Shown here: one piece after another, positions 12,955-44,420 of the stretch | How positions within the stretch are numbered: the first letter of the stretch is position 1 | Layout: every line of letters begins with the position of its first letter | DNA from: Massariosphaeria phaeospora | Taxonomy: Eukaryota > Ascomycota > Dothideomycetes > Pleosporales | Reading direction: 5' to 3' | NCBI GenBank assembly: GCA_011032825.1 | Contig: JAADJZ010000009.1 | Coordinates: 1,364,001-1,428,000 of the forward strand | DNA: 64,000 nt | The notes under the pieces: generated by a model | Seen by the model: the letters and a program-made list of their open reading frames with translations, nothing else | Databases searched by the model: none | Told to the model about the DNA's origin: nothing | Translations under genes and position numbers: made by a program

Positions 12955-13010
12955 CTCATTCATGGTGTGTTCTGGGGCTGGGGTTGTCTGGAAATCGTAG
13001 AGTTGAGACA

Positions 13011-13135
13011 GCATGGGGGACGAGGGAGGGAGAAGAGGGGAGGGAGAAGAGGGGAGGGAGAAAGAGATCGGGATTTTGCGCATGGTGTGGGGAGGAGGGG
13101 GAAGAGGGGGAGGAAGGAGAAGAGGGGGAGCTCGA
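13011..13135 (+). repeat. Purine tract (GGGAGAAGAG-rich)
   Basis: An expanded copy of module C of array 1: about 120 bases almost entirely G and A on the + strand, interrupted by GATCGGGATTTTGCGCATGGTGTG in the middle. A homopurine mirror-like tract of this kind can form non-B DNA. Confidence 0.85.
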
Positions 13136-16100
13136 GCATGGTGTGTGTCGCTGGCTCTCTGGGGACAAGGCTCTAAAAATAACATGTTAATGGAGTTATG
13201 GTTGAGGCTAGCTGGGCTGGGGCTGGCTGAAATTCAGTGAATAGCTGCAGTATGGGGGAGGGAGGATAAGAGGGGGAGGGGGACGAAGAAAGAGATCGGG
13301 ATTTTGCGGATGGTGTGTGTGTCGCTGGCTCCCTCTCGAAAAAAGGTCCTGGACATTCGACATATGGTGCGTTTGCGAGAGGCTTGGCTGAAATTCGAGG
13401 AACGACAATGACATGGGGGAGAAGAAATAGGATGATACTGGATGAATGGTGTGTGGCTGGCCGTTTTCCTCTTCTTCACGCTCTCCAGTCCGCTGAGTCG
13501 GATACTAAAACTGTACGAATTGCGCGTACATGGTGCGCTCGAGCTGGGCTTGTTTGAAATGCACAGAATGTGGACAATATGGGGGAGGAGGGAGAAGAGG
13601 GGGACGACTAAACACACCTGGAAGCTGCAGTATGGCTGTGTGTGTCGCTGGCTCCCTCTCGAAAAAGGTCCCGGACATTCCACATATGGTGCGCTCGAGC
13701 TGGACTTATCTGGAATGCACAAAGTGACGATGACATGGGGGAGTTGAAAAAATGGTTGAAACTAGACAATTGGTATGCGGCTAGCGCTATGGGGAGGAAC
13801 GAATAAACAGGCCTGGCAACTTTAGCATGGTTGTGCGTCGCTGGCTCTGGGGACTAAAAAGAATATGCACATAGAGTTACGGTTGAGACTGTCTAGAATT
13901 CCACAGGTGTCCTCAGTATGGGGGAGGAGAAATAGGTCGGAACAGATACACGTGGTGGCTGGCTGGCTCTGGGACGACGACGACGGGTCTAGAAAGATCA
14001 TCGTCATGGAGTCATGGTTTGGGGCTGGCTGGCTTGACTGAAACCCAACAGGGTCAAAAAGAATGGGGAAGAAGACAAAACATGGTGTGCGGCTGGCTTT
14101 GTGGACGACGACGACGACAGGTCTACAAATAATATGTTCATGGAGTCATGGTTCCCTGGTCTTGAGACTGGCTGGGCTGTTTGGAAATTCTTCTAATTAG
14201 GAAATGTGGGGGAGAAGAAAGAAGTTGGAAGGTGAAATCATGGTGTGCGGCTGGTTCTGGGACTAGAAACATCAAGCTCTCAGAACCACGGACGAGGGTG
14301 TGGAGACTGGCTTATCTACAATTTGTAGAATGTCGATGGTATGGGGACGAAGAAAAAAGTTGACCGGATGAATGATGGTGTGTGGCTGGCAAAACTATTC
14401 GCTGGCTAACCTATGCTACGCTTGAGTATCCCCGTTCTAAAAGTCCAGATACTTCACTTCTTCGGGGAAAAGAACCACCCACAGGCGGAACCATGGTCGT
14501 GCGGTCCCGGTCTCGGCTTCCCTCGCTATGGTCGTTTTGGTTTTGGGACCCAGAAACCAAAATATCGGCGCAAAATGAAATGGCGTTTCCGAGTTTGGGT
14601 TATCTGAAAAACGGAACAAGCTAGAGCATGGGGAAGAAGGAGAAGAGAGGGGGCACAGTTATGCAGCCTTGCTGTCTACAAAATTAAGGAGAAAGCTGCC
14701 ATGGTGTCCTCGCGTCTGGTTTGTTAGAAACCGTATAATAGAAACACTGTGGGGGGAGAAAATGGTGTTCTCGAGCTGTTTTCTCTGAAAAGTTCAAAAT
14801 ACTCCCCCTTATGAGGGAGAAGGAGAAGAGAGGGAGCATAGTTGCGCGTCTCCGCTGTCTACAAACCACAAGACAAAGACGATGATGGTGTCGTCGAGTC
14901 TGGCTTGTCCAAAACCTCATCAATGGAACCAATATGGGGGAGAGATCGAGAAGGGCAAAAGTTGAAATATATCGCGCGCCCCTGTGATCTACACTCTTCA
15001 CATTCGTGGACCCGGACACCGAAAGTTCGGAATATACAAGGTCATGGTACTCTCGAGCTTGGCTTATCTGGAACTCGAAGAACACTAGTATGATGGGAAA
15101 GGACTGAGAAGGGATGCGAGCATGATCGTGCGTCCTCGCTATAAAAACTGAAAATAGGAAATGAGGATAACTTCATGGTCTCCTCGAGAACGCCTGGTCT
15201 GCAGTCACTGGAGGTCTTTGGAACGGTGATTAAACTAGAAAGAGGTAGCCAACATGAGTACGCGTTCTCGCTCTCTAAAAAAAAGTAATATTCAGGTAAC
15301 ATGGTGTCTCTGAGCTGAGCTGGTCTTGGCTAAAAGATGGAATTTACAAGCGCTATGGGGAAAGTTTGAGAGTTTGAGAGTGGAGAATTAGCACAGAAAT
15401 GTTCTATAGGGATTGCGTGTCTTCGTTCCCGCTTACGACAATCTTCGCATCTGGGAAATCGAGATACTAAAAATGGAATATGGAAGGATGATGGTGTCTC
15501 GCGTCTGCCTTGTCTAGAACTGCAAAAACAATAGCAGCATGGGGAAGGTCAACACGGGAATGTCTTATAGGGATTGTGTCACTGTGTCTTCCACCTTACA
15601 CTTTACTGCTGTTGTATCTGCGAATTCGAATCGACATACTGGAACTGAAGGAGGTCTACGATGAATATGCCGTAGGTTTTCCAACCGTCCCAGCGTTTAG
15701 CCATGAAAGGATATACCGCATCTGATGCACCATGGTGCTCTCGCGTCTGCCTTTCTGAAAACCTCCGAGACGATCCTGCATGGGGAAGGAATAAAAAGGA
15801 GGTATTACACATGGTCGTGCGTCTTCGTCTCCAAGCTCTAAACACCAGGAGGTCGGAAGCCATGGTGTCCTCGAGCGCGCCTTGTCGAAAACGGTATTAA
15901 CAACAGGAAATCGGTGGCTGGGAGCACAAAGTCCCCGCTGTGCACACTCTTCGCGACTGTGGAATCGGAATACTAGCAACACAGCATGGACAAAGATCAT
16001 GGTGTTCTCGTGTCTGTCTTCTGAAAAACTTAGCTCGTTGAAACCATGGGAGGCTAAGAAGACTGGCTATTTAGAGCATGGTTGTGCGTCTTCGCTCTTT

Positions 16101-16539
16101 AAAAAAAACATTGGACTGGACATGATGGCCTTGAGTGCACCTGGTTTTTTTTAAAAAAGACCATCTCGAGAACTTGCAATGGAGAATAAACGAAACGGAG
16201 GAAACGTACATGGTTGTGCGTCCTCGTCCTCGCCCTTCACGGTCGTTGTAACTGCGGAATCAGGACACTAAACTGAGTTTTCACAAGATCCATGTGGTAG
16301 GCTTGAGATAGCCTTATAAAAGATTTATGGGTGTCGGGAATAAACTAGCGTAGCAGCTATACCATGCTTGGTAGCTTCGCTCTCTAAAAGATGTAGTCAG
16401 AAGTTGGATGTTGTGTTGAGCGCGCCTTGTCTAAAACCACCGGATGTCCTTGCAAGGGAAAAGTTTTCGCAAGCTCGAAGCTAAAGCGATGGAGCCTTGT
16501 TTGATTTCAGCGTGAGCTGAGTGGGTGGGTGGGGGTGGT

Positions 16540-16665
16540 TCGGTTTTGTGGAGCGCATTCTCAGAACCATGGTTCGTCAAGATGACTCCTATATAAAATC
16601 TTCGGTTCTTCCGTCCTCCTTTTCTCTTCACTCACACACACACACACAATTACTCTCTAATATGT
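16540..16665 (+). promoter_or_regulatory. Promoter-like segment inside array 1
   Basis: Within the array a TATA-type box (TATATAAA, 16590-16597) follows AGAACCATGGTTCGTCAAGATGACTCC. It is followed by a pyrimidine-rich stretch (TCTTCGGTTCTTCCGTCC...), a CACACA run and TCTCTAATATG. The same order of elements and much of the same sequence occurs just upstream of the alkaline phosphatase start at 52239. The ATG here opens only four codons before a stop, so no gene follows. Confidence 0.65.
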
Positions 16666-17984
16666 CGCTATAACATCTCTCGGTCGTTGCGCGTCCTCGT
16701 CGTCGTCGCTCTCTAAAACCTTTTGCAACAAATTACCTGGACTTTTCGACATGGTGCGGGAGACGAGACTTGGTGTTCTGAAGCCCGCTGTCGTCAAAAG
16801 ATCGTCTGAACACGCCAGTATTGGGAATAAACTATCAAACGCAACTGCATATGGTTGTGCGTCCTCGCTCTTTACGATTCTCGCATCTAGCTACCCAAAA
16901 TTCGGACCAGGCTGGACCATGGTTTCCTCGAGCCCGCGTTCTCGGACGCACGGGTCAGACGAAGCGTGTTCTCGTCAAGAAGATCTGGAACTCGAAGGCA
17001 GTCAACTACTAGAACACTAAGGAATAGAGGATACATACCACGCATGGTTGTTCGTCCTCGCTCTCCATACTCTCCGTATCCAGTTACTCGGAAATCCAAA
17101 ACTTGCAGTATATGGTTCCGCGAGCCCGCCTTCTCAAAGTTATTAGAAGCCTACCGGAAAGAAGCGACAAACCTTTTCTATGGTCGTCTTCCTCGCTCTC
17201 CACAATCCTCACATCCGGCTACTCGATAATTAAGCGGTCGAGAGGAAGAACAAATGTGGTGTCTTCGAGCCTGCCAGTTCAAAGATATCGGAGGCCTGTG
17301 AGATGGAAAAGAACAAGACAGAAAGATCGTCGATGGCCGTGCGTTATCGCTGTCTACAATCCGCGCATTCAGCTACTTGGAGACTAAAAACAACAACCTA
17401 CCAAAGTATGTGGTGTCCTTCAGCCCTCCGCCCCCTTTGTATGAATCCAGACCGGACGCCTCATCATGGGGAATGACCAAGGCATAGAAAGCGGCATGGT
17501 TGCGCGTCGTCCCTCTCCCTCCTCTTCATATTAGTTACCCGATATCTAAAAACATCCAAGAAGACTGCACTATGGTGTCCTGGAGCCCGCTTTCCCAGAC
17601 TTATAAGAAGCCAAGCAACGGATAACAAATAAGATATACGAGAATTTGATGGTCATGCGTCCTTACTCTCGACACTCCTCCCAGTCGCTTACTGAGAGAA
17701 AAGCACGTGGTGTCCTCCAGCTCCCCTTTCGATAAATACAGAGGATATAGCGGCATGGCGAACAACATGTCGCGCGAACCAACAAAAGGCTGTGCGGTTG
17801 TCTCTGCGCGCCGTGCAAATCGAAAGTCAACCCATTTGCTTATGTATGGAGTTCTGGCACTGGAATCATATCGCCGAAAAGCCATGTGGTGCTGTTCCCA
17901 CTTCGATCGATATATATATATATATACACAAACCAACCTCTTCAACCTCCATGGGAAAAGAACGCAGTCGCCTCTTCTTAGATG

Positions 17985-20210
17985 TCTGCGCTTTGGACCC
18001 TGGAAGATCCGAAAAACTGAGGCTAAGAAATACTATGAGTGCGGCTTTGGACACTGGGGTGGGGGCTCTGAGGAGACAAAAATGAACGGGTTTGACTCGT
18101 GATGAGTGGCTCTGGTGTCTGGCCGTGTTGAAAATACACATTTGTTTGTGAATGACTGGATTGGAGCTCTGAGCGATTGGAAAATCGTTGGCCGGATTTC
18201 TATGAGTGTGACTGGAGCCTGGAGCCTGGAATCTAGAGGCAATACGCTTGAGACACCATACGGATTATGTGATGACTGGACTGGACTTCTAGGAGACGAA
18301 AAACAAACGAAATGACAACTTATGAATGCGGCTTCGGAGCCTGGGTGTTTTCAAGCACTCCGAAACTAGATGCATGACGGGAGTGGAGCTCTCGTGGATC
18401 GGGAACTCGTTGGCTGGCCATATATAAGTGCGGCTGGAGCCCGGAGTTGGAAATCTAGCGTACTCTGCGATGGCTGGTTTGAGCCTCCGAAAAAAAAGAA
18501 CCGATAGTACATCAATGTTATGAGTGCGGCTCGGAGTCTGGCTGTTTCAAACACGTTGACAACTGGATGCATGACTGGGGCGGCGGGTCGTTCAGAAAAA
18601 ATCTAGAAAGCTCGACGCGTCAGGTATATGGCTGTGTTGCCTGGCATCCTGGAATCGAAAGCCTGTACTATCGGAATCGACGCGAAATTCCTTGGATGCC
18701 TGTTCGGGCTCTGAGAGACCGAAAACCGCACTGAACCACCGGAATGAGTGTAACGCTGGAGTCTGGCCGTTTTAAAGATAGGAATTCACGGGTATGACTT
18801 GAGTGGGTCTTTGGGAGACTGAACAATAGACTGGACTGAAGCTCTACCAAGGACTCTGGCTATTTCGAAAATTATGCATACCTTCACGGTATGACTGGAG
18901 TGGGGATGGGGAGTGGAGTTTGAGGACATCTCCAAAACTTCTCCATGGAGGCGGATGGTGCGGGAGAGCTGTGTTCATGTGGTAAAAAGGAAGTTCGGAA
19001 TTTACTCATGGGTGGCGTGTGGGAGAGAAAGAAAGAAAGAAAGAAAGAAAGACGAAGTTCTTACCCGCGATGGAGCTAGATATGGGGTGAGCTCTAGATG
19101 AACCCAAAACGACCTCGAAACAGTTCTATGACTATAACCACATGGGCGAATGGCCTATGGCGTTGGAAAGAAAAAATTGGACCATGGACCGGATTCATGG
19201 GTGTCCGTGTGTTTGGGTTCCGCGTAAAGAATACAACACACAAGATCTCCGTGAATGTGCTCTGAGCGTTTCTTGTCTAAAAAGAACGTTCTAGAGCGCA
19301 ATGGTGTATTGGAAAACTACAAAATCAAGTTCTTATGGGTGTGAGATCCAGGTTGTGGGGGTGAACACAATAAATAGGGACGCAATGCTCGTGTACAGGG
19401 GTGCGCTCCAGATGATTCATGGACAACAAGACTATGAGTGCGGTTCTGCACTTTGGACTCAGCTGGACATTTCGGCGTGTAGAAAAGTATTGGAGCCAAT
19501 ATTACATGTGCGAGGAGGAAAATGAAAATCGCACTCACTAAGCCATGGTTAGGGGTGTTCTGGTTACGGGCGTAAACAAGCGGGAAGCCGATATGATGGG
19601 AAGTTTATGCGCAAGAAAACTCCTGGAAGGCTGGAACATGACTGTGGTTTCCGATCCTGCACTCCGGACGGCTCTGTACGATAAAGTTTCCTGAAACCTC
19701 GTCATGAGTGCGTTATGGACCGTTCCACTCGAGATAATCTTTGGACAAATCTCTGCTGTGGGCAGCAATAAAAATAGCAAAAACAGATCGATCGATGCTC
19801 GATGTCAATCGTGGAAATTCAAAACCACTCTTCGGAGCTACGTATGTGGAAATGTGCTCTGGACCTTTATGTTTCATAAAACGCTTGAAGAACCTCCATG
19901 GACTGACAGCTGGAAGAAAGCGCATCTCTATGAGAATTCGAGTTATGGAAGTCGAAAAACAGACGGTATATACCGATGGGTGCGCTTTGGACCCCGCGGT
20001 TTGACACAGTCGCTATAAATTGGAATCCTCAGCATATTGTGAGAAAAGCGCTCAAGTACAAGAACATGGGTAAAGACTTGATGTCTAAAAGTGAAAAAAC
20101 AACGTCACACCGTGATATATGTGAGTGTGTGCTCCGGACGATTCGGCTCGAAAATCACAGCCCGCATCAGCATGGGTGGACGGGGGCACGTCGTTCTTTT
20201 ATCGGGTCTT
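17985..20210 (+). repeat. Degenerate module array continuing array 1 (ATGAGTGCGGCT type)
   Basis: The pattern changes to two other alternating motifs. One resembles TATGAGTGCGGCTYTGGAGCCTGG (18034, 18203, 18320, 18426, 18520, 18745, 19433, 19702, 19974, 20118). The other resembles ATGACTGGAGTGGAGCTCT with GGAGAC (18150, 18273, 18373, 18570, 18890). Spacing is about 95-230 bp and becomes irregular to the right. No open frame spans several copies. It may be an older part of the same array. A (GAAA)n microsatellite interrupts it at 19026-19052. Confidence 0.6.
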
Positions 20211-23200
20211 AGGATGCAATCACGACCGACTTTACGACGTTCCGATGAGCGACTTCTGGACTTTGAGTGCTGAATCCAGAGTTATTGGGGATTATGGGAA
20301 ATAAAATGTCGAGGCTTTGACTACAAGTGTAGAACTAGGTCTGAAAGTGAGGGAAGAATAAAAGACACTGGTAACATAGCCATGAGTGTCCTTGTGAAGA
20401 CAACCGCGAAAAGCGGAACATTTGCGAGAATAGGGATAAAGAACTAGATCCGCTCTTAAATAAGCGTAGCCTCGAATTTCATGATTAAAGAAAAGACAGG
20501 AGAGACGTCCCAGCGAGTACTGTATCTAAATTCACCGACGGATGTCGAGATGTCGCGTGGAAATTTCACGAAGAATGCCTAGTACGGAGTGGGTAGTTGT
20601 GGGAACAATCGCAACCAGATAACGCTCATGACCTTGGAACCTTCACGCACTTTGTTGTATGAGGTTCGTGCGGGATCACTCCAGTTATAACCAGATTTCA
20701 GAAACGATAATGCGGCTTGAGAATCCTTCCAGAATAGACGCCTAGAATGCCGGTATGAGACAAAACTTCAGACAGCAATGTTATTATAGCTTGAAGCTTT
20801 TTAGTCAGAAACAAAAAACCTAGACACTGTGTTTGGCATGGGTACATATTGTAGAGACTTCGGGTGGAAGATGGAATCCTGGATACCGGGTTCAGCGGAA
20901 CTGAACCAAACCGCCTCACTTTCCGGTCATGGAACTGGACCGCTTTTTGAAACGGAACTTCCGCGTTGCTTCAGCTACGTGAGTACGTATCGGAAGGCTC
21001 CTGTCTACCCACACTTCAGATTGCGTGATACTACCACGTGGTTCGGAAAGTCTCTGTAAAAGTGGTCTAAGTAGATTATACGACAGCGAAGAACCAATAA
21101 CGATGGACACTACAACTGCGGAACTAAGTTTCTAGCAAACTTTTGGCGTTTAGGCGTTATGCGCGGGATTTGGGAATACCCTGCTTAGCGGAAACAGTGC
21201 TGAAGGGCCTGAAAAGAAAAATTACGCGACAGCATGTCGTGAGAATTAAAGATATGGTGTCCTTTGGATATGACTGGTAGCTGTCTTCTTGAATATAACC
21301 TAGAGCGGCCACTGTTATGAGAAAGACGCGGACTCCCAGATAGTGTCTAAAACCTCTTGACATGACAGATATGGAAACCAAAAGAATTGGGCGTGTTTCA
21401 CCATAACGTCGAACAGGCTTGCGAGACTCTATACATTGCGAACCGCCAGTACGAAGACAATAGGAGTCCCTTCTTTACTGGATCCCAAGATTGCTGTACT
21501 AAACGCTGGATGCTGTTTGGAATATCTTCTCACGACGCCGAATTCGTGGGGATGTTTTGGAATGAAAAGTCTACATACTTTTACGCGGACGCTCTTTCCA
21601 GAATGAATAGCGTGATCTACATAATCCATACAACCGATTCGGGACATGCTCCATGCAGATAAAAGCGACAGTGGCTTTGATTCATGAGTTTGAGCCAGAT
21701 TTCCGAGATAAAACTGCCCAAAACTTCCTATATCTACATGGGTAACCACCTGGATCTTTACTATGACCAACAATGGTCATTTTGTACGGCGCCGGTAGTG
21801 TAAATCTAGACTTTCGTATCATACAAGCATCAAAAATACGTATGCGACCTTCTTGATGTAGGGTCTGTTGATCGCCATCAGCAAGGCTTGACGATGATGA
21901 TTACCGTCAGGCCAGTGAAAAATCCTGAATCATGCTTACGGGAAGTTACTGTGAGCTTCGTAGAGCGTCTAAGTCGTCTTAGCTCTTCCCATTTGGTTTT
22001 TGTTTTCCGCAATTTAATCACACCATCACACCATTTATTCATTCTTTACATGCAGGTCACCATAGACCTTCCTATTCAGCAGACTCATTCGACCGAACTC
22101 CATGAAACAAGTTGAGCGATGTTTTTTGTCAATCCAAGCCTCCATATTGGTGAGTGCTGCATATTGTAGAGAGAAGGAGAGAGGGAGAAAAGAAGCGGTA
22201 AGGAAGACTTTTATATGCACTTCGACATGTCATTAACCGCGCCCTTTTGACAGCCAGAGATGGAATTATTCGAGGGTTGAAACATTTTGATGTACCAAAT
22301 GTTACAAGATACTGGGGAACCGAGTGCGACATAGGCTGAATCTTGATGTTCTTCTCATACACACTTGGGGGTTGAGTTCTTTGCGACTCACAAAAGACAT
22401 AATCTCTTTCTGGTAAATGTTGAAGCGGACGCGCTCCATGTATGAGAAGACGATTGATTTTGTACTAGACATATCGAGAACAGAGATTAAAGTACCTGGT
22501 TCCATAAAGTACCCAGAAGGATAATTGACGTCGCTGGAGAGGAAAGACATGTAACAAGGTCTGTACGTTTTTACATCGTTATGCCGGGAAGATTTGGTGG
22601 TACCATGGCAGGAACGTCAATGAATTTCAATAACGGGTCATAAAAGTTCCGCTGTACTTTTGTAGTAAAGCAGAGGTCCGGTGTACAAGAACATAATGAG
22701 GTTGTCGCAACGGTTCAACGTGGAAGAATACTTTGAGGTAATTTTCATCATTTCGATGATATCGATCCAAGCTAACCAAGACTTCACACAACCATATTGA
22801 ATCGCACTTTTAAGCTGCCATCTTCTGGACACGACATCAAATTTGCCTTCTCGAACAACGACTTTCCCCATGACCGGGCGCTTGGGGACTTTTAGACACA
22901 TGCCTAGCCACTACTTATTTTTAGTATGGAAACTTGAGCTTGTAGAATAGAGCGGGAAAGATAAGGTGCTTATATACCCATTGCTATTCCGGTATGTCAA
23001 AAATGAGGAAATGAGGTTGTCTTAGTAAGACCTGTTAGAACCTTAGAAGTAAATAATGTGTTGGAGTTGAGAGGGGAATAACACGTGGTGACGGAAGGGA
23101 TCTAGATGATGATTATTATCATCAAGGTCAAAATTCCACCATATCCTCGGACACTGTCACACAAACCGTCTTGGGGACTGCACATAGCAAACCGGATTCC

Positions 23201-24811
23201 CAGTTTCTGGAAACCAGCTGATTGTTTCACGACAAGCCCGAAAACCGAGAACATGCAGGTATTGCCTGTAGATCTTTCGACTATTACCCAGTCAACAGTC
23301 CTCTCCAGACATGTGAGGTGTTCAGATAGGTTTTTAGAGGTACCAACTAATTGGCGAGTCGGAGTGTGCAGAGAAGAGAAGCCACATCCGAAGAGGGGCT
23401 TATGTACCCCGAAACTCAGAACTTTGCATTTCCCGAAGCGGAGAAGATATCGCTTTAGAAAGCCGCACAACATCCATATCTGTATAGCCTACATTCCGCG
23501 GAGTCCAGAGACATACGTTTTGCCTCATCCATTTTTGAACCCGAAATCGTTCTTTTCCAGCCATGCGTTCTTGATGTACTCGGTTAAATCACAGGAAGCA
23601 TGTTGTCTTGCATGCAATCATGTGTAAGTAGTGTTTTCAAAGTCCAGAACCTTCTCCACACAAGCTTTGTTCCGCTTGCAGGTTTTAGTCTCCACCCAGC
23701 AGCGATGTGATCGATGGTGGGCGCGGCGCAGACATTGTCGCTTTTTCTCGTTGTTTTATACTCTGCTTTGGGAGCATGTTGCTGATATCACCGTATTTAG
23801 TATACCTTATCTTTGAGTCGAAGTCCAGCACGGATGCTATCCAGACATTTGTTGAGGGAATTCTGGATTTCTTTCTATGATGAACGCAATGGTCTCAGAT
23901 TTCGATATACTGCACACACAACGAGTTATAAAGAGTATGAGTGCTGATTCGCGAAATGCGTTTCGCGAACATGGTGTGACTGCGGTGGCTTTTTTTGTTT
24001 ATTCCAACATGGGCGACATTTTCGTGGGTTTCTCGCTCTCCTCGAGCTACCTGACTTCTGAACGCGCTGCATACACAACGAGCCATAACAAAAGCGAGTC
24101 GCGAGTTTTTCCTATCCATGCTTCACCCAGACCGGTCGTCTTCCTCGTACCGTTCTCAGAAGAATTTTTCTTTTAGTGGCCAGCGGTACCTCAAGACATG
24201 TGTCGATAGCTTCATCTGTTTTAGCCAGCCTCATGAGCTGTACCGTAGAGTTTGTAGTTTCTAGACACGCTCGGAGAACGAGCCATGTGGCTGTATAGTC
24301 ATGTATTTAATCATGTCCGGAAGAGCGAAGACCCTGTCACGCATAGGTCGAAGGCTGTTGTATTTTTACGGTGGAGGAGTGGTCAGTGTGAGTAAGGATT
24401 GTGGTGGTAGGATGGACGTTTTATATGCGGAGATGGGGAGCCGAGACCGGATGCTTGACATCCGCTAGCAATGTACGTAAGCAACTTTCTACCGAATAAC
24501 GCAATTAGCGATGTGCTTCTAGACATAACCGAAGCCGAGCTATTGAGTATAGAGGCGTAGTCACCGCCATGACTACTAAAAAGACTCTGCAGACTAGAGG
24601 CTCGAATCCTGTTATTTGTCTGTTTAGGCCTACTCTTGCTAAGACTTCCAATCGCTCCCTTATGTCCTCATCTGGCTAATAACAATTTCACAAAGTCTAT
24701 ACAGTAGATGGTGCCACTCAGATGAACGTCACTCGAATGTCCAATCCTGAAAACACCTATCGCTCCAGCCACAAATTGATCATTGCTCCAATCGAGATGC
24801 GTTTACACACA
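20211..24811. other. Long stretch without recognisable genes
   Basis: I see no supported coding region in about 4.6 kb; the longest frame (about 23106-23627, +) has no known motif and unlikely composition. Scattered array-like words persist (for example ATATGGTGTCCTTTGG near 21253), suggesting further decayed repeat. A 25-bp imperfect direct repeat containing ACACAACGAG occurs near 23918 and 24070. Confidence 0.45.
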
Positions 24812-26633
24812 TCAAACTTCTTGAGTCTCAGGCCCAATATCACTAACCAGAGATCCAGAGTCGGCAGAGAGAGCAATTTGAGGAGCGTTCTCCGCAACCC
24901 ACGCATCGACACCTTGAAGCGCTTTCTCAGGATCGCCTCGGCACGACTGCAAGAAGTTCTGCACCTTTGCCGGGGTAAATGTGTCGTCCGGTACTCTTTC
25001 AGCAAACGTCTCGGCCAGCACTTCCAGTTGGGGTAACGTGTAATTTCCCTTTGCGGACGCCGCGCGCCCGACCAAGCGAAGGAAGATCGCGCGAATGGCC
25101 GGGGTGCGCATGTTGCCGAAGAAGATTCTCTTGTCAACCCGGCCCGGACGCACAAGCGCTTCGTCGAGGGTATGCGGGTTGTTGGATGTCATTACCAACA
25201 AACGGCCCTCCTGAGAGGCATTGCCGTCGATCGCGTTCAAGAGCCCACTAAGTGTTACTATCTGCGGTTGTCGGCGGGCGGAGGCCCGCATAGATGTGGC
25301 GGAATGAAGAGTCATTGGAAGTTGAGCTACTTGAGGTGACGTAGGCCGGGGGGCGTTCTCGCTGGAGTCGCCCTGTTCGCGACCGATGCCGGCGGAATCA
25401 ATATCTTCAATAACAACCACGCACTTTTTGGGCAGGGCTAGGAACAATCGATGAAGCTTTCCGTCGCTCATCTCTCCAGTGGCTAGGTTGATCATATACA
25501 CATCGCAGTTGAGGTGACCAGCTAAGGCCGCACTGAAACTCGTTTTGCCGGTTCCTGGAGGATAGTCAGCAATGAATGAGTGCCTTAAATTGAGAAATGA
25601 GTCAAACTACCTGGAGGACCATAGAAGAGATAGCCGCGCCGATATGGAATGCCGCAGTCCGCAAAGAACTGCTTTGATTCGTTGCTGTAGTAGTACTCGG
25701 CGTCCTGAATAAGGTCTTGCTTGATATCTTCGGACATGTCGACGGTGTCGAGTTTACGAATGGCCTTCTCAACGGAGTGCCAGGCGTTGCCGCCGAACCC
25801 GTCCTCCCTTGAACCGGAAAAGTAGACCGTAGTTGTGTCTAACTTGGTTTGGATCTTATAGTCGTGACAGATTTTCATGAAATGTTGCAGGGGTTCCAAG
25901 CTCCAGCCAAGCGTTATTATGTTCAGGGAGTTCTGCAGCCGACCATCTTTGCTCGTTATAGCTGTAAAGCCGGCGGCTGCTGGACTATTAGAGTAGCCAT
26001 TACGGGTGACCAAAAATGGCCGAAAACCGATCCAGAAGAGTTTCGTGCCGATTGGCGGGAGACATTGGACCTCCTCTGAAGGATGTGTAACTTGTCCTTG
26101 CCGATGCATATTGATGTGGCGGGCAGGATCTTGTAGACCGCCGGTGATAACCATAGCGTTTCTGGTCATACCTTTGCTTCTAGGGGTAAGTTAGCACGAA
26201 CGGATAGCCTATACACAAGTGAAGAAGCCAGCTAGCGTCTGGCCAGGTGTGACCTTGAAGTATGATCGACATAATAAAACGGGCAATCGCACATTACACG
26301 ATCAGACATCCAAGCCAGAATCTCCCTCCCAACTGGATCACTCTCGGGTACCGTGATCTGCGACGTCAACGCATATGCCAAGAATTGCTTCAGATACATG
26401 TAGACGGGCTTGGCAGCCTTATAGAGCGCAATAATCGCCAACGCTTTGTCGAGATCGCTGTTCGGTTGAAAGCGAGAGAGTAGCCGTTGAATAATCTCCA
26501 GAAGCGGAAACTGGTGTATTACTGAATTCTTCTGATGGATTGGTATGATGCCTGGAGAGTCTAATGGCTCTCGATACATCGCCAGGCTCCGTTCACGCTC
26601 CATCGGGAAATCGGGAACTTCTTGAGGTTCCAT
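24812..26633 (-). CDS. BCS1-like AAA ATPase (3 exons, 563 aa)
   Basis: Exons 26633-26254, 26179-25611 and 25554-24812; phases close at 564 codons. The Walker A loop (GPPGTGKTS, about 313-321) is assembled exactly across the second intron, which supports that junction; Walker B is VVVIEDIDSAG (about 362) and the RPGRVD arginine block follows near 453. The BCS1-type N-terminal region lies upstream. Mitochondrial BCS1 translocates folded Rieske iron-sulfur protein into complex III. Filamentous fungi carry several diverged BCS1-like paralogs of unknown client, and this one, lacking an obvious N-terminal membrane helix, may be such a paralog. The first donor (GTCACA) is unusual; a branch site GTGCTAAC supports the acceptor. 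Confidence 0.85.
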
Positions 26634-32876: not shown

Positions 32877-33917
32877 GCTGCGACGAGGATTTGAAGCAGA
32901 TATATAAAGTTTAATAATAGTACAATTAATCTTACCTTCTCGCGTGCTCTATGGCCGGATTGGGAATCACAGATGCCATGTTTTTGACCGTGTGATGACC
33001 TTCCTGTTCGGATGGCTAGATCTGCATTCCGGTCTATGGCTAGATCTGGGTCACGTCGATTTCCCAGGTTCCCCGCAGTGCTCCCTTGAAAGCAGTACAT
33101 AGTACCACGTGTGGGGGAATCCCCTGCAGCATGTTCCTGAGCGCTGGAATTTGGCAGGGGCAATTGTAATACTATGGAGTGGAGAAGTTGAGAGCTCTCC
33201 AGGGCTCGGGAGTGTGCACGTGACAGCGTGAAACCTGAAATCGCATCTGAGACATTAGAGTAAATATGCTAGTATCGTCGGGGCGGCCACCGCAAAGACG
33301 TCGACAAGATTCTGTATCAGGCTGCGAGTATGGCTGCAGGTCCGCCGCAAAGCTAAGCCGGCCGTTTTCTGGCAGCCGATGCACGCTGCAGCCTGCAGCT
33401 ACGAAGCTCCGCGCCGAGCTGCACCTTTCACCACAACGCTCGCAGTGAAGGCCCATCGCCCGTCGCCCATCGCCCGCCGCCCTTGCTGTCGCACCCCCGC
33501 ATGGTGCGCAGACGTTGCTCCGACGCGACGCGTGCCTTGGCAGTCGAAGTGGTCGACGCGCAAATTGGCGGCAGCGCAATTTCCAGTGCGAGCGTGGGCC
33601 GGGATCCCAAGTCATAACTGCTGTCGCAAGGCCTGGGTTCACGAAACGCTCCCCGCACCCCAATGCACTCGCCCTCACCCTCGCGCCGCCGCTGAGACGA
33701 CCGCCGACGACACCCGTCCACCCGCCGCCATTGACGCCTTTGGACAGCTTCGACGACCGGCGGAGGGCTATGCGCAGCGGCATCGACAACCACCGCCAGG
33801 CGCCGCAACCGAGAGACCACCGGCTGGCACGCAGACACAGGCCAGCGCCCACGGGATAGCAGAGCAGGACGCAGCCATTGGCCGCCGCAGCCCCGCGCAG
33901 TGACATACAGACAGACC
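32877..33917. other. Intergenic upstream of the kinase gene
   Basis: No gene is supported. From about 33420 the sequence is GC-rich and pyrimidine-rich, with several long overlapping frames on both strands typical of GC-rich 5' leader DNA. Confidence 0.5.
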
Positions 33918-36900
33918 ATGGTGGCTCATCCGATCAAGGCCCCGAACGCGCCCCGCTCCTCGCAAGCCGGCTCCAGCTCGACGTTGACCGCGCCCGGCCA
34001 CGGCAAGAAGGCCTCGTCGTCGGCCTCGTCGACGAACCACCGCGCCCCGAGCCGCGAGGGCAGACACAGAGATGGCTCGGCCCAGCGGGCCGCCCAGGAC
34101 GTGGTCGGGCTCAAGGACTACCAGTTGGGCGACTGCCTGGGCAAGGGCGCCTTTGCCAGCGTCTACCGCGCGCTGAACTGGGGCACGGGCGAGACGGTGG
34201 CCATCAAGCAGGTCCGCCTGGAGACGGTCGGGACGGTAGACCTGAAGACGATTATGCTGGAGATCGACCTGCTGAAGAACCTCAACCATGCCAACATCGT
34301 CAAGTACCACGGCTTCGTCAAGAGCTCCGAGTCGCTGTACATTATCCTGGAGTAAGTGCACCGGCTACTCATGCCCCTATTCTGCGGGCCCTTCTGCGGC
34401 ACAGTGTTGACAGGCGCAGGTACTGCGAGAACGGCTCGTTGCACAGCATCTGCAAGAAGTTCGGCAAGTTCCCCGAGAACCTCGTCGCCCTCTACATGGC
34501 CCAGGTCATCCACGGCCTGCTCTACCTCCACGAACAGGGTGTCATCCACCGCGACATAAAGGGCGCCAACATTCTCACAACCAAGGAGGGCCTGGTCAAG
34601 CTGGCAGACTTCGGCGTGGCTACAAGGCAGTCGGGCCTGGACCAGTCGAGCGTGGTCGGAACGCCGTACTGGATGGCGCCAGAGGTCATCGAGCTTTCTG
34701 GCGCCACGACCTCGTCGGACATCTGGAGTCTGGGGTGCACTGTGATTGAGCTGATTGCCGGGAACCCGCCATACCACAAGCTCCAGCCCATGCAAGCCCT
34801 CTTCAGAATCGTTAACGACGAACACCCGCCGTTTCCAGGCAGTGTTTCCCCGGTGAGCATATGTCCACTCCTACTACCTGCCAGCGGATCCGCTAATGTA
34901 TACAGCTGCTCCGTGACTTCCTGATGGAATGCTTCCAGAAGAACCCGACTCTGCGAATTTCAGCAAAACGGTTGCTCAAACACCCATGGATATTGAGTGC
35001 AAAGCGGACCGTGCCCGCGGTGCCCACAAAGCCGACAGAGTATACCGAGGCAGTCAAGTCCGTGCAGGAGTGGAACGAGGCCCTGCGGTCACCCAATTCA
35101 CTCCGGCACAGTTCTCGCTTGGTATCGGGGGTGAAGAAAGAAGCCCCACAGTCGTCAACTGCCACGAGGGCCGCGGCGCCGGTAGCTCGGAAGCCTCCCG
35201 TGAACGTAAATCTCAACATCCCGAAGCACAGACCCAACGCAGACTCGTTCCGCTCGCCAGATATTGACCAGGACGACAACTGGGACGACGACTTCGCCGA
35301 GAGCATCTCGCCTCGTGCACTTCGCCTGCCGCACCTAAAGCCCCAGGACAATTTTGGCGGCCTGTTCTCCGGCGATAAGCTCAAGGCTTATGCAAGCTTC
35401 GAGACCGTCACGGAGGAGTCGTCATTTCTTGATGGTGAAGCCACAGTGAAGAGCCCGCTCGACCTCCGGCATTTCCGCGGCGTCGCAGATTCTTTCGACG
35501 ACGTGCTGTCGGTACAGGACTCAACTACCCGTATCAGGGCGTCAAGAATAACGTCAGAGTCAATGCAAGAAGATCGTAATGACGGGCCGAACACGGCAAT
35601 TCTTCGTGGTATTCCCAAAGCAACACAGCTGTCGAAGAGCAAGGTCGCTGCTCTAGCTCGGCCGTCACAGATGTTCCGAGAGAACTCCATCGAGGACTAC
35701 TCGGACCTGATGCCTACCGATGAAAGTGCCTTTAAGCAGAAGCTGAAGGCCATGCAGTATGCGCAGCCACCATCGATGTTACCTCCGCAGACTCTGGCGA
35801 AATTAACGTTGAACACTTCGGCCGAATCGTTCTCGCCCAAGCTGTTCCACCCCAGTGATCTCAAGAAAGCACCACTGTTAGCGCGGGATACAACGTCGAA
35901 CGGGAATGTGCGGCAAAGATCAGCGTCGTCAACGTCGGCGAGGAAGATGCAGCGTTCACAGTCCGAGATCGAAATTCAGAAGTACGCCGAGGACGACCGG
36001 GACGACTTTTCAGACGTCTTTGGGGATATCAAGCCGAGCCGAGCCGAGAGCGACAGTGGTTCTGAGCACAGTAGCATGGCTATGATCACCTCCAAGATGG
36101 CATCCTCGTTTGTACGTCATATCTCCAGAACACAGCTATGACCGAGCTAATGTGACTAGATGATTACCGATGAAGACGACCTTGATCCGTTTGCAAACTT
36201 GGAAGAAGGCCTCGAGAACATCAACCTAGAAAACAACGTAGCCCGTGACAGGGACGACCGTCTAGCGAAACAGACGGAGAGTCTCGTTGGCTGTCTCAAG
36301 ACGAACCAGCCTGACGACGTCCTGCTTGACATTGCAGACCAGCTCATTCAGGTCCTTTATGAGTCGCCCGATAAACGAGCAATTGTACTGCGATCCCACG
36401 GCATGCTTCCTATACTAGAGCTTCTCGGCACCATCCCTCCATACGAGGTTGTTCTGGGCCTCCTCAAAATCATCAACCTTATCATTCTTGAAGACGCCGA
36501 ATCTCAGGAGTCGTTGTCTTTCCTTGGCGGCATCCCTATTATCTGCCAATTCGCATACAAGAAATACCCGAGCGAGATCCGGAAAGAAGCTGCTGCGTTT
36601 GTACGACAGATGTACCAGACCAGCACACTTACGCTGCAGATGTTTATTGGCTGCGGTGGTATTAACGTTCTTGTAGAGTTTTTGGAAGAAGACATAGACG
36701 CGGAAAGAGATCTAGTGCTTATTGGGGTCAATGGTGTTTGGAACGTCTTTCAACTGCAGGGACCGACACCAAAGAACGATTTTTGCCGAATATTCTCTCG
36801 CAGCTCAGTGCTGTACCCGCTATCCCTGGTACTGAACCGCGTCGTTGACGAGAGGGATGAAGTGGCGCAGCTTATCCAAGGCCGCATCGTTAGCATTTTC

Positions 36901-38649
36901 CTCATTTTCTCACAAGCTGAAAGCCATGTGAAAGATCTGGTGGCCGATCGAATGATCCTAAAACGTATGTTTCTTTCCTTTCACTTTTTGCCCTTAGCCT
37001 GGGTTTGTTGTCTGGCCAATGGTTTGCTAACACGTTCACAGGCGTGCTTAAAGACCTCCGCAAAATGGCACCGACCGACCAAGTTACTATGCTCAAGTTT
37101 ATTAAGAATCTGAGCATGCTCTCCTCCACCCACGAAGCACTACAAAATTCCAACGCCATCGACATTCTTATCGAGTTGCTCAAGTCATCACGCAACCAAC
37201 GCCTCTACCGCGAAATTTCTAATCAGATCCTAAATACCATGTACAACCTTTGTAGACATAACAAGAGTAGACAAGAGGAAGCTGCGCTTTCTGACATCAT
37301 CCCCATTCTGAAGGATGTTGTGAAAGAGGGCGGTCCACTGAAGGAGTTTGCTCTGCCGATTCTTTGCGAGCTTGCGCATTCGGGCAAGGTGGCGCGCAAG
37401 ATGTTGTGGGATAGCAAGGGGCTGCAGTTCTACATTGCCATGCTGGCGGATCGGAATTGGCAGGTCACGGCCCTGGATGCTATCTTCATATGGTATGTGG
37501 CGCGACGTTGCTTGTGTGGGAATATCTGCTAACCATACTTTCAGGCTCCAGGAAGAGACTGCCCGCGTCGAGCAGTACCTCCTCTCGTCTAACTTTAGCA
37601 CCGCCATCATCTCGTCCTACACATCCCCCGAGCTTTCCCAATCGACGTTCGAGAACATGCTCGAGCCGCTCCAGAAGCTCGTTCGTCTCTCTCCTCCCAT
37701 CGCCGCATCGCTCGCCGTCCCAGAAATCTTCACCCGTACGATTCAGAAGCTAGGACATAAAGACGCCGTCACCCGCCTCAACCTTCTCCGTATCCTGCGC
37801 ACCATCTGCGACGCCACCGAGGACGGCTGCACCCTGATCAAGCAATTCGGCGTCTACAACACAATCCACCACCTCTCCCTCCAAGACCCCGCCATCCTCG
37901 TCCGCCAAATGGCCGAAGAACTCGTGCGCGCCTGCGACGAAACCGGCAAGCGCAGCGCGTCGCGCAGCTCGGGCTTCCGCCGCCCCGCCTCCAGCACCGG
38001 CACCCGCGCAGGCTCCGGCTCCAGCACCGGCTCGACCCTCGTCTCCGGCCTCACGCCCCCTACCCCTAATAGTCTCAAAACAGCCTTCTCAATCGGATCG
38101 ATGCCGCCTACCCCGACAACGCTCGGCAGCAGCAGGGACCGCGCGTCGCGCAGCCAGTCTACTATCGGCATCTGGGACGTCCAGGAAGAACCCTCGTCAT
38201 CATCGCGCATGAAAGTCCGCCCACTGACCCGCGCGTCCACCGCGCTCGCGGCCATCGGCGGCCCCGCGGCATCGTCGAGTCTAACTTCCCGCGGTGGCGC
38301 TACGCCGAGCGGTCGTCCGCCGAGCCGCGACGCGACTTCTGCGGCGCTGGCGAAGGAGAAGAGCAGGTTGCCGAAAGCAAGGCAGGGTAGGTTGAGCGAG
38401 GCCGTGTCGAGGCGAAGGCAGAGCCAGGCGGGAGAGGAGAACTCGTTGCCGGGCGCTGCGAATGGGAGCGCTGGCGGCGGTAGTAGTGGGAGTGCTGGGG
38501 TGGTGCCGCCGATGCCGATGCCGAGATTGCAGGTTGTGAGGCGGAGGCGCGAGACTAGTGGGGGGGAGATGGCGAGTGCGGCGAGTGCGAGGAAGGGTGG
38601 GACTGGGACTGGGAGTGGGAGTGGGGCCAGAGCCGGAGCTGCTGAGTAG
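33918..38649 (+). CDS. sepH: Septation initiation network kinase, SepH/Cdc7-like (6 exons, 1477 aa)
   Basis: Exons 33918-34351, 34420-34852, 34906-36111, 36160-36964, 37042-37492 and 37545-38649; 1478 codons with stop. A Ser-rich leader precedes a complete STE-type kinase domain (about 67-320): GKGAFASVY 75-83, VAIK Lys97, HRD 188-190, DFG 208-210 and GTPYWMAPE 225-233. A linker then leads to a long armadillo-like helical region (roughly 730-1130) with the [10 protein letters not shown] block conserved in Cdc7/SepH, and a Ser/Gly/Pro-rich tail. In Aspergillus SepH and fission yeast Cdc7, the kinase acts at the spindle pole body downstream of the GTPase Spg1 to trigger septum formation. I chose the ATG at 33918 because the frame upstream has no other ATG. 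Confidence 0.92.
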
Positions 38650-39280: not shown

Positions 39281-42200
39281 ATGGTGGGTATATAAACCCC
39301 AAGTCCTTACCCTTCTTACTTCTTTTCTCTCTACGGGCTCCTTGAGCAGGATGGGAGTGTGAAAAAAACCAGACATGGACATATTCCATGCAGCGGAAGC
39401 GGACTGGACTGGTCTGGGTGGATGGTGGATTTGTGGCTGAAATTGGAGTTGGATACTCGGAATGGAGTGGGGAGGGAAGGGATGGCGGGGGTGGGCGAGG
39501 GAGTGGACGAGGTGATGGAGAGTGGAGATTGGTGATGGTGAGCATTAGCATACATGAAAGGGGGTGGTGGTGATAGGTGGGTGAGTGCGTATATAAGCCC
39601 CTCGTATCCTGCTGCTAAATACGTTTCTTTTCTTTTCTCTACAGGTCTGTTCAAGAGTGTGGGAGTGTTAATAAGATATACACGAGTCAATCATGATGGG
39701 GTGGAGTGGGACTGTGGAGCGCTGTGGGCGGTGTGTTTAAAAAGGAAGGTGGCGGAGATCATGTCTGTGGGACGGGTGTGCGGGCGTGAGTAGTGTGTGC
39801 GGATTTGGGGAGTGGGGTATGAGTGGTGATGGTGAGCGTCGGAATAATTGGCAGGTTGTGAGAAGTGGTGAAGGAATGGGCAGGTGGGTAGGTATATAAG
39901 CCCCCTCGTCTCTGCCCATTTAATCTTCTCTTTTTCTCTACAGACTCTACCGGGGATAGTAGAGGGTAATAAAATGGATTACACAACTTCCATGGAGTGG
40001 AGTGGAGTCAGAGTCAGAGTTAGTGCGCATCAAAAAATTGTAGGAAGCACGGCATGTGTACGTGTTTGCCGCGTTGAAGATAGGGCAAACGGTGACGATA
40101 GTGATAATCAGCATATGAGATAGTTAGTTAGCTGTAAGGCTGGGTGGGTATATAAGCCCCCTTGTCCCTCCCCTTCTAGATCTTCGTCTTCTCTACAGAG
40201 TCAGTCTACCAGGAAGGTAGATGATAAAAAACAAATATCTTAAGTTTATGATGGAGCAGAGTGGAGTCGGAGTTGGTGTTAGGACCAGCACATCAAAAGA
40301 GTTAGGAAGCACGGCATGTGTGGACGTGTTCGCCGCGTTGAAGATTAGGCAGGCGGTGATGATAATGCTGACGTAGATGATGGTGATGATCGTCCTATGA
40401 GAAATATTAGGTATGAATGCCTGGACGGGTATATAAGCCCCTCGTGTCTGCCCTTCCTTTTCCTTCTTCTACACAGGCTTTGTGGAGCTGGGTGGGTGTG
40501 TAAATAAAAGAACCAGTGAAAGAATTTCATGAGCGGAGTGTCTGGACTGGAAAAAAGAAATGAGGTGAGAGTATGTAAATGGGAAATACGGTGGTTATGC
40601 AGGGTGCGTTGCGGTGATACACCCATGGTAGTGTTGATGATGATAATGAGAGGTGATAATAGTAGTAGGAGAAACGGAAAGGTATATAAGCCCCTCGCAA
40701 CCCCCCTTCCTCACCTTCTTCTCCACACGCTTTACAAGCTAGACGGGAGTCTTACTAAAACACACTCAAAAAAGCGCCATAGAGCGGAGTGTCTGGACTC
40801 GAAAATAGACCATGGTGGACGCATGCGGGCTGAGTCATTTTTGTCTGGACTTACGTGCGTTGCGACGTTCAAGTGGTGGTGATGGTGACGTTGCCATTAT
40901 ACTTATTCGATAACGACGACTAGTGTGAACGTCCAGGCGGGTATATAAGTTCCTTAAATCTGCCCTTCTAAATTTTTCCTCTCAGCAGACTCTTCTCTAC
41001 GAAGAGATTCTGAATAAAACTCAATGAGTACCGAGCGATGGTCTGGCGTGCCTGGACTGGGAAAGAGATAGAGATGGTGTGGAAAGGGTGGTTTTGTCTG
41101 GAATTAGAAAGGCGTTGTGGTGAGATTATAATTGTAGTAGTGGTGATGGTTATCGTTTTGGAAGGAAATGGTGAGGTGGTGTTGAGAGGGGGTATATAAG
41201 CCTCTTGTTTCTGTTCTTTGTATAAGGTGATTCTGCACGCTTTGCAAGCGGGTAGGAGTGTGAATAAAATAGAATACTGAGTTCCCGATAGCCTCGCGTT
41301 CCTGGACTGGAAAAAAACGTGACTGGGCGCATGAGCTGGTTTTGGGTGATTCTGAGTGCGTTGCGGCGTTCGAGCTTGGGTACAGAAGAGAAGTGGGATG
41401 ATGATGATCTTCTTATAGCATTGCCGACGAACATAATCATGCTGTCCGCTAAGTGGTTATATAAACCCCTTAATCCTTCCCCTCCTACATCTTTCTCCTC
41501 TGCAGTCCTCAATTCATGTGAGATTGGAATAAAACAGCCTAGAACGCCTTCGATGGACTGCCGTTTCTGGGATTCGAGAAAAGAAGGTAACGAAGAGATT
41601 GTGCGCATAGAAAACTATTAGGTTATAGCGGAGTATAGAGTCAGAGACAGGGTAGAGAAGAGGGAGTAGTGATGCTGACGATGATCTTTTCATGGCGTCG
41701 CTGATGAAGATAAACGTGCTGTCTGTCGAGTAGTATATAAGGCCCTTCTCTCTCTCCCCTCAAGCTTCTCTTCTACTCAACATCCTACTCCCTTTATAAC
41801 GGTATTGAAACCGCGATTCGCAAAGTCCATGGAGAGCGGCGTGAAAGATTCGATTAAAATGAACCACGATCCGCGACAATGGAGCGGACTCCACGTTGGG
41901 TGGGAAGCACAATGAAAATTACGCAAGTTCATTATTGATGTGTTGGGGCGTGGAACGAGAAAGTTGAGAAACCTTCAATGCGGCGGTGCATAGTGCAGCG
42001 TCGTCTAAAAAGTGCGGTTCTCTGTCGGAGTTATGTCTTCAAAATGGCGATGACGGTGGTGATGACGAGTTTCTGATACTAATAGTAAAAGAAGGTGTCA
42101 ACGGGTGGATATATAAGTCCCCTGAATTCACTCTTCTAATCTCTCTCTCTACATGACACTTCTTACTAAGTGCAAGATGCAAGCAAAAGCTATATCGCAA

Positions 42201-44420
42201 GCACTTATGGTGAGCATGGAGTTGAGTGAAGCGCACTAAAATGAACTAGGAGGGCTTCGCATGGTGTGGGTGTGGTGGTTGAAAATAGTTGCAGAGGCAG
42301 AGGATGTGTTGTGTGGTGTGTTTGCCGTCTTGGAGTCGCGCGAGGTTTGCGGGATGATGATGAGAGTAATGGATATGTTAATCGTCTAGTGGTGATGATC
42401 AACTCATTAGCCACTTTGTATGAGGATGTGACTTACTAATAGTAGAACAGGAAAACAGTATATAAGCCCTCGTGTCCCACGATTAATTCAATCTTTACTT
42501 CTCGCCTGCAGACTTTAATGCGTATGTAGAATTAAAAACATGTGGCTAGCGCACTTATGGAGTGGAGCTGAGACGAGGCTGACAACTAATAATAAAAACC
42601 CGGCGAAGGGTGTGACGGTAGCAGTATAGATGTAAGTTGAGGCGAGAGTAGCCTAAGTGTGTGCTGTATTGGTGTTTCGAATCAATAGAACGATATGAAG
42701 ATGAGGAAAGCTTTGAGTTGGATTGAAGGGTATATAAGACCCTCGACCGTGCCGTCCTCTGCTTCTTCTCAATGTAACTCCACCTACGCAGGAGAATAAA
42801 CTCGAAGCTCAATACTGCAATGGGGTTGGGATGAGTCGGAGGAGGTGTGGAATAAAGATCAGGAAATGGGAGCCTATGGAGCAGAGTAGAACATGGGATA
42901 AAACGGAGAAGGTTTCCTTGATGGTGCGGAGTAGCAGTCGCGAATGGCGTGCGGATTGTCGTGAACATGCTACGAAGGCTGCGTATATAAGTCTCAAGTA
43001 ATCGCACCTTCTTCCTCTACATCTCGCTGCGTAGGGGAGCGGAGAATGACATGTCAAAAGCGACGATCCGATGGAGTGAGAAGGTAAAAATACGTAAGGA
43101 ACTATCTATGAGAATTGTGTTGTGTGGAAGAGCTAGTGCAGGCGAGAACAAAATTGTTGAAAATGCAGCCTATGTGTGATGCTGGTATCTACGACTTTGA
43201 GTTTCTCGAGTCCGGAAATACAGATTGTGGTGATGATGCCAGGCGAAATCGTAGCAAATAAGGTCATGAAAGTGACGTAGAGATAGGTATATAAGCCAAT
43301 TGATCTCGCTTTTGAACTCAATTCCTTTTGTCTTCGCAATATAGGTTTACAAAACTCAAGAAATAATCAGCGATATGATTGAGCAGAGTAGTAGTAAGGA
43401 TGAAATAGAACGCGCAGATTGAGGACGACGTGGTGTTGGGAGTATTGAAAAGAAATATCGAGATTATCGAAATAAGCACGTATACAGAGGATGAAGAGAA
43501 CGCGGTAATGATTTGCGTGATGGTGATTATCAAATGAGTTGAGGAGAAGATCAATGAAGTGCAGAAATAACCATGATGAGATCCTATCTTTGGCTTTCTA
43601 AATCCTTTCTCTTTACGTCTGCTAGTGCAAGATTCAGGAACGATTGGAAAGAGAATTGATGAACATATATGATGCTACGGGCAAGAGTAAGATAGATTGA
43701 GAAATCTGTTTGGGGTTGCGTGTTGTAGTATGTGTAAAGTTTGGGTTAGTGTATATGTAACGTCTGCACCGCGTTTAACGTGAAAACGAAGATTGCTGCA
43801 TGCGCTAACAGTAGTAAGCAGTGATAGTTACCACCAAGTTATCAGCACCTCCACGCTTATAATAGGCCAAGAAAAGGTATATAAGGGCCCCCTTGACTCT
43901 CTCGTCGTTGATCCTTCCTTCTTCACATTCGACCTCGTGCGCTGAGCAGCACTGAAAGGTTTCTGGCTTACGAACATAGCCTGGAGGAAGTGAGGTGCTT
44001 TAAAACTGAACGAGTGCAGACGCATGTGTCTAAGTGCTCTATGCGAAGCTGCAAGAAAGATTGCGTTGAGAAGTAAAATCAGTGCAGTGTGTCGCGTCAT
44101 GATGACGGATTGATAGTGTAATCGACAACATCTTATTGATTAGTGCGTACCCCAAGCTTAAAGGTGTAGAAAGTAGCATATAAACCTCCCTTTCTTCGGC
44201 GATCTTTCCTATTTAAACCTTTCGTAGGCTAATAGATATACAAAAGAATAGTCGTGTCGATCATGGGGTGGTGCAGAGAGAGATGTCAAAGAAGTAGAAA
44301 GAGCGGCGACTGCGGTTGATGCGGAGAGGTTATTAGTTTGTGGGACTAGTGAATAGGTAGGAGTTTTGGAAACGGTGATGATAGTAATTATCAACATACT
44401 GCTCGATGTTCCAATATTGA
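39281..44420 (+). repeat. Tandem array of promoter-like units (array 2), about 18 slots
   Basis: Seventeen TATATAAG/TATATAAA boxes (one CATATAAA) lie in the same orientation at 39289, 39590, 39893, 40149, 40430, 40683, 40942, 41193, 41458, 41734, 42110, 42459, 42731, 42984, 43288, 43877 and 44177; a slot near 43580 has lost its box but keeps the pyrimidine tract. Steps are mostly 251-304 bp (extremes 349 and 376; 589 across the lost slot). Each box is usually followed by CCCCTCGT-like sequence, a C/T-rich stretch ending near TCTCTACAG, then 40-60 bases later AATAAA or ATAAAA, then a CATGG-like or CATGAG site and TCTGGACTGG-AAAA. Upstream of the boxes GAT-rich DNA with TGATAA/TTATCA is frequent. 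No frame is conserved between units, which diverge by substitutions and indels, increasingly to the right. Confidence 0.85.

Follow-up and report, generated by a model that had tools for sequence, protein, structure and literature searches.

A window of 64,000 nucleotides (nt) from the genome of the ascomycete Massariosphaeria phaeospora (contig JAADJZ010000009.1, forward-strand positions 1,364,001 to 1,428,000) contains a tandem array of 18 promoter-type slots of about 280 bp each (array A3, 39281..44420, + strand). Seventeen of the slots carry a TATA box of the TATATAAG type ([TC]ATATAA[GA]), the first starting at 39289 and the last at 44177, all on the + strand. The boxes of units 1 to 9 lie at 39289..39296 (TATATAAA), 39590..39597, 39893..39900, 40149..40156, 40430..40437, 40683..40690, 40942..40949, 41193..41200 and 41458..41465 (again TATATAAA), those of units 10 to 15 at 41734..41741, 42110..42117, 42459..42466, 42731..42738, 42984..42991 and 43288..43295, and those of units 17 and 18 at 43878..43885 and 44177..44184 (CATATAAA). 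The successive box-to-box intervals are 301, 303, 256, 281, 253, 259, 251, 265, 276, 376, 349, 272, 253, 304, 590 and 299 bp, 13 of the 16 falling within 251-304 bp. By eye, the 590-bp gap contains the 18th slot, number 16 in order, which has lost its box at about 43578 and in which a pyrimidine-rich stretch is still visible (43578..43620, + strand). An initial annotation had described the region as about 18 promoter-like units, each with a C/T tract downstream of its box, and both points are borne out: a pyrimidine tract is found in all units with a box, with a C+T content of 68-86% over positions +8 to +45. When the 18 slots are aligned, no parts are better preserved than the box and the C/T tract. 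Tandem Repeats Finder, run on the window, does not report A3 because its copies are too diverged. The AATAAA-like and CATGG-like sites also proposed for the units turn out to form together one module, an A-rich word followed by an ATG at a fixed distance, which in a loose test is seen in eight of the 17 A3 units and, in the same test, at none of the window's four boxes that belong to no array. The module is more numerous in A3 than the boxes are (24 against 17), and the right end of the array is decaying.

Units of the same kind were collected with the word TATATAA[GA] (in one collection also CATATAA), giving 191 units in 24 array-strand groups. Their common order is a GTGATG-rich stretch, TATATAAG, CCC, a pyrimidine tract, CTACA(C/G), a short hairpin, TAAAA, ATG and a G-rich stretch. 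The CCC stands directly after TATATAAG and the pyrimidine tract reaches about +43 (profile of 166 units). The unit profiles bear out the expected excess conservation: this tract and the positions surrounding the box are better conserved than the remainder of the unit. CTACA or CACAC/G occurs at +28 to +56 in 114 of the 191 units, against 48.9 +- 5.1 in shuffled sequences, and TAAAA, which was not used for finding units, at +52 to +95 in 130 units (32.1 +- 5.1 in shuffles). The ATG lies 23 or 24 nt after the T of TAAAA in 85 cases, spacings of 22 and 25 nt being represented by 10 each. Between the pyrimidine tract and TAAAA, no conserved motif is found in the profiles of units anchored at TATA (166) or at TAAAA (109). 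Since the box itself was used for finding units, its own conservation is not directly countable and rests on its regular spacing: 135 intervals measure 200-399 bp, 30 measure 400-699 bp and 27 are longer. The + strand between units is C-poor and G-rich (GC skew up to 0.39), as opposed to the strongly C/T-rich stretch after the box (24 groups). Upstream of the box, GTGATG is found in 73 of the 191 units compared to 18.4 +- 4.2 in shuffles. This enrichment would suit arrays that act as a sink or scaffold, titrating the TATA-binding protein (TBP) or whichever factor recognizes the upstream stretch resembling GTGATGATG...GCATCA. Such a role is nevertheless very improbable, as it leaves the downstream module, the fixed spacing and the position behind same-strand genes (see below) unaccounted for.

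The A3 array is not unique in the genome, and chance is excluded by the counts of unit patterns compared with those of reversed controls. The combined pattern TATATAAG-N58-84-TAAAA-N14-26-ATG has 226 genome matches against four for its reversed control, and its strictest form 65 against none. Likewise, TATATAAGCNC-N48-75-CTAAAA has 144 matches against none, and TATATAAGCCCCNCG, with one mismatch allowed, has 109 clustered matches against one. These counts are of matches, a few of which share one box and a few of which belong to other repeats. By contrast, CTAAAA-N17-20-ATGG, taken by itself, marks the units in the genome poorly (372 matches against 219 in the reversed control). Among the matches listed, 75 places can be told apart, 38 of them with at least two hits and located on 16 contigs. 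Both counts are rough, the grouping having included, of the TATATAAGCCCCNCG matches, the 20 exact ones and having been made after removal of two look-alike pairs of the TATATAAGCNC pattern and five ill-fitting rows of the combined pattern. In 16 of 20 stretches taken around or beside hits, at least five boxes lie on one strand, with 23 in L019 and 16 in L013.

Within arrays, mean identity between units is 41-62%, and similarity is higher between neighbouring units than between units far apart (mean rho -0.31; 16 arrays, 15 of them negative; p = 1e-5). The low identity together with the likeness of neighbours points to old tandem duplications in which the key elements have been kept. The likeness of neighbours, and the plain decay in the array A2 (see below) and at the right end of A3, would also be expected of an old satellite, that is, of a functionless tandem duplication of a promoter-bearing segment with core elements surviving by homogenisation. 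Yet at so low an identity the boxes still recur at unit spacing and the TAAAA-ATG distance is held to about 1 nt, one layout is common to arrays that differ in sequence, and a neutral satellite would ignore the orientation of neighbouring genes, all of which makes the satellite improbable. With more than 200 pattern matches in a 42 Mb genome, a sequence that diverges fast while keeping promoter, spacing and orientation is unlikely to be idle.

Two further arrays are found in the window. A1 (12851..22450, + strand) opens with a complete promoter unit at 12860 (TATATAAC, also given as TATATAACCCCCC) and continues as tandem [AAAA-N17-21-ATG] modules, 53 of them counted, mostly without TATA; it contains three TATATAA words in all, that is, two beyond the opening unit. 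A2 (21900..24430, - strand), a decayed array of 13-14 modules with TATA-like words at 24427, about 23405, 22976 and 22217, converges head-on with A1. On the sense strand of the three array stretches AAAA-N17-21-ATG reaches 5.5, 5.5 and 4.7 per kb, compared to 0-0.3 per kb elsewhere or on the other strand, and no peak of AAAA-to-ATG spacing appears in the remaining 45.3 kb of the window on either strand. After the ATG, G+T is raised (0.70 against 0.56 in A3, 0.62 against 0.52 in A1). The dense modules in A1, A2 and A3, taken with the scarcity of TATA in A1, indicate that the arrays are united by the 3' module to a greater extent than by the promoter. The view that the promoter is the thing multiplied, as the initial annotation had it, is not supported, since units also carry a hairpin and the A-rich/ATG module and A1 combines some 53 modules with three TATATAA words. 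Outside the arrays, where the ordinary genes of the window must have their ends, the module is nearly absent, and it is therefore probably not an ordinary polyadenylation signal; it may be either a special 3'-end signal or something else.

The arrays lie in sense behind ordinary genes. In all 13 arrays with a Pfam-identified upstream neighbour this gene is on the same strand, which at a chance rate of one half corresponds to 1.2e-4. The neighbour of A3 is a protein kinase gene (33860..38649, + strand) with the Pkinase domain in its first open reading frame (ORF); the following same-strand ORFs up to 38649 presumably belong to the same gene, and the last ends about 640 bp before the first A3 box. 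A2 follows a BCS1-like AAA gene (24812..26190, - strand), and the other neighbours are RTC4, MatE, PX, Pirin, sorting nexin, NIPA, eIF5A-like, EBP, two Fungal_trans and a RING protein. A PRELI-like gene piece upstream of A1 (11171..11947, + strand) is below the Pfam cut-off and excluded from the 13. Ten of 11 gaps between ORF end and first box (eight of the 11 at arrays of the 13) measure 219-674 bp and one 1539 bp. Two of the 13 neighbours are distant (about 2.5 kb in L018 and 3.4 kb in L023), with other ORFs lacking identification in between. Outside the 13 are the arrays L011, L012, L015, L016, L020, L022, L025, L026, L045 and L046, which have no Pfam-supported upstream gene. Among these, same-strand ORFs, none with Pfam support, are present at L011, L012, L022 and L046, and the nearest ORF of L016 (222 amino acids, no Pfam match) is on the opposite strand. 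As one of the Pfam neighbour scans took same-strand ORFs only, the resulting bias was checked with opposite-strand ORFs, and a scan of 15 of these beside arrays gave no match. The downstream neighbours of the arrays are found on either strand, and two arrays point at the 3' end of a gene encoded on the other strand: L011, with a KilA-N/Ank gene beside it, and L019, which has a Fungal_trans_2 gene at its far end.

This consistent position, along with the predominance of the 3' module in A1 and the rise in G+T after the ATG, would fit arrays that act in cis as repeated initiation and termination (polyadenylation-like) elements, blocking read-through or insulating neighbouring genes, with any short RNAs as by-products; the spacer promoters and terminators of ribosomal DNA would be the model for such a role. 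An efficient synthetic polyadenylation site for mammalian vectors, with a rabbit gene as its basis, is printed in PMC11905892 (there cited to Levitt 1989). In that printed sequence an A-rich signal is followed by a G/T-rich stretch at the same distance as in the array module (24 nt between TAAAA and the GT-rich stretch, by our own count). The array module differs from such a site in that, by the densities given above, hardly any copies lie in the remainder of the window, in which ordinary genes end. Moreover, a terminator has no need of a TATA promoter and a hairpin in every unit. A cis-acting role is thus a serious but rather unlikely alternative; if correct, the arrays would represent a so far unknown way of marking gene ends.

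The hairpin was examined by comparing folding energies with those of dinucleotide shuffles. A dip is found just before TAAAA (mean z -0.93 +- 0.12, 130 units), with its centre about 12 nt upstream of this word. The per-group analysis, which like the reading-frame analysis below excludes the 56 of 191 units without an A-rich anchor and uses groups of 1-12 units, gives a mean z of -0.88 over the 24 array-strand groups (21 negative, p = 3e-4), compared to -0.10 for a downstream control segment. When hairpin halves are swapped between units of the same array, the own halves pair better at splits 12, 14 and 16, where 0, 3 and 10 of 1000 permutations, respectively, are as good, and the same test is null at four shifted control positions. 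RNAalifold on MAFFT alignments finds no consensus structure in nine of the ten arrays shown. The hairpin signal is real but modest, absent from several arrays and not strand-specific.

No reading frame is shared by the units, as the initial annotation had already noted: stops after the ATG are about equally frequent in the three frames (83, 87 and 72 in 118 units). An ATGG context and a repeated hydrophobic-looking start, ATGGTGCTGGTGCTG, in L013 might suggest decayed genes for tiny secreted peptides beginning at the ATG. These are rejected, given the equal stops and, as judged by eye, the absence in most arrays of a peptide common to the units or of any consistent agreement among predicted peptides. 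Alternative first exons of a downstream gene are also rejected, since the L011 and L019 arrays, each pointing at the 3' end of its opposite-strand neighbour, cannot supply that gene with first exons. Hardly any credence is left for either of these coding explanations.

The core of the units, a TATA box followed by a pyrimidine tract, is much like that of the U2 small nuclear RNA (snRNA) genes of the same genome, in agreement with the fungal core promoter layout recognized in the initial annotation. The U2 core consists of TATATAAGCCC (L037) or TATTTAAGCCC (L038), a pyrimidine tract and TTACAC (L037) or CTACTC (L038). What we take to be the 5' end of the U2 RNA places the start about 40 nt after the box at both loci, so that the expected start of an array RNA is the end of the pyrimidine tract. 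U2 genes differ from the array units in having an upstream element, GCTAGCGCGAGGC, resembling a proximal sequence element (PSE); in combination with the TATA box it has two exact genome matches, both at L037/L038. Of six U6 loci, the two whose promoters were read, L034 and L036, have a TATA-like word without a pyrimidine tract.

Taken together, the promoter, the hairpin, the module and the lack of coding capacity are accounted for if the promoter-bearing units are self-contained RNA polymerase II mini-genes for hairpin RNAs of about 50-60 nt, a reading that is plausible and put forward tentatively. TBP would bind TATATAAG, and transcription would start near CTACA(C/G), where the pyrimidine tract ends, about 40 nt downstream of the box. 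The RNA would open with the short hairpin, in which pairing may be kept better than sequence, and would terminate at TAAAA-N~19-ATG, the module that carries a G/T-rich tail, yielding a non-coding RNA of about 50-60 nt. Local tandem duplication, beyond the 3' end of a gene on the same strand, may be how the units increase in number. That the units are transcribed, where their RNA would start and end, which strand would form the hairpin, and that the RNA itself would matter, rather than the act of transcription, are predictions from sequence. Among the four meanings offered by the initial annotation, an array of short RNA genes fits best; the tiny peptides fall away, while sink and satellite keep the low standing given to them above. 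In a wider sense, and with a little more reserve, the arrays could constitute a genome-wide class, probably of hundreds, of RNA polymerase II mini-genes placed in sense behind ordinary genes and producing array-specific hairpin RNAs from a promoter and 3' module of fixed geometry. Such RNAs would form a new eukaryotic class of small structured RNA, equipped with a 3'-end signal of its own. If transcribed, the units would be small RNA genes of a new class and would also offer a naturally occurring set of minimal RNA polymerase II transcription units.

Several results weigh against the mini-genes. The CTACA-like word is missing from 77 of the 191 units, and 61 have no TAAAA at +52 to +95. The hairpin excess is nearly equal on the complementary strand (mean -0.71; forward against reverse, p = 0.10) and is missing in several groups (L018+ 0.37, L023+ 0.79, L046 0.22, L029 -0.06, L022 -0.12). 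The half-swap test fails at splits 17, 18 and 20, and A3 alone gives no clear hairpin peak, the signal having come from the pooling of arrays. A search of the A3 region (39000-44600) against Rfam returns no match at E<=5. In addition, the roughly 53 modules with three TATATAA words in A1 are not predicted by independent mini-genes, and this TATA-poor array is better explained by termination or insulation in cis.

With regard to known systems, no Rfam match is found at the gathering threshold anywhere in the window, and hence no ribosomal DNA spacer was identified there; a search for transfer RNA genes found none, and a reading as small nucleolar RNAs, judged by eye from their boxes, was not adopted. 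Promoters of ribosomal DNA intergenic spacers form tandem units of one orientation behind a gene 3' end, are used by RNA polymerase I and lie between ribosomal RNA (rRNA) genes. The likeness to the present arrays is in layout only, as these are located behind unrelated protein genes and have a core of RNA polymerase II type. Nearest in kind are the Class I RNAs of dictyostelids, which in the passages of PMC7919456 that describe them are short (42-65 nt), non-coding, intergenic and often clustered, with a stem that joins the 5' and 3' ends and is kept in structure but not in sequence, a shared 11-nt motif and the promoter element DUSE. Clustering is seen here as well, in the 38 of 75 places with at least two hits among the matches listed. 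As far as those passages go, the array units differ in that the hairpin appears to be internal, its signal being centred about 12 nt before TAAAA and not at both predicted RNA ends, that the promoter consists of TATA box and pyrimidine tract, that no motif of the 11-nt kind appears in the profiles of 166 and 109 units, and that the arrays form long regular rows behind same-strand genes. No comparable system was found in the open-access literature, judged partly by titles, with subscription journals and preprints lying outside the search. Among the known families compared here, none agrees with the arrays in every feature examined.

Some minor observations concern the loci compared. The sole Rfam match in six other array stretches is a 5S rRNA gene (79.6 bits) at L022 1375-1256 (- strand), on the same strand as the L022 array, whose last TATA box it follows by about 320 bp. 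Parts of the GCTAGCGCGAGGC-type PSE-like element recur at L040 and L041 (U2-like locus below the Rfam cut-off). By eye, the U2 genes at L037, L038 and L040 contain GTAAGT...CTAAC...AG insertions that may be spliceosomal introns; one of these follows a TAGTT/CAGTTT-like stretch, and L038 and L040, unlike L037, have another close to the 3' end.

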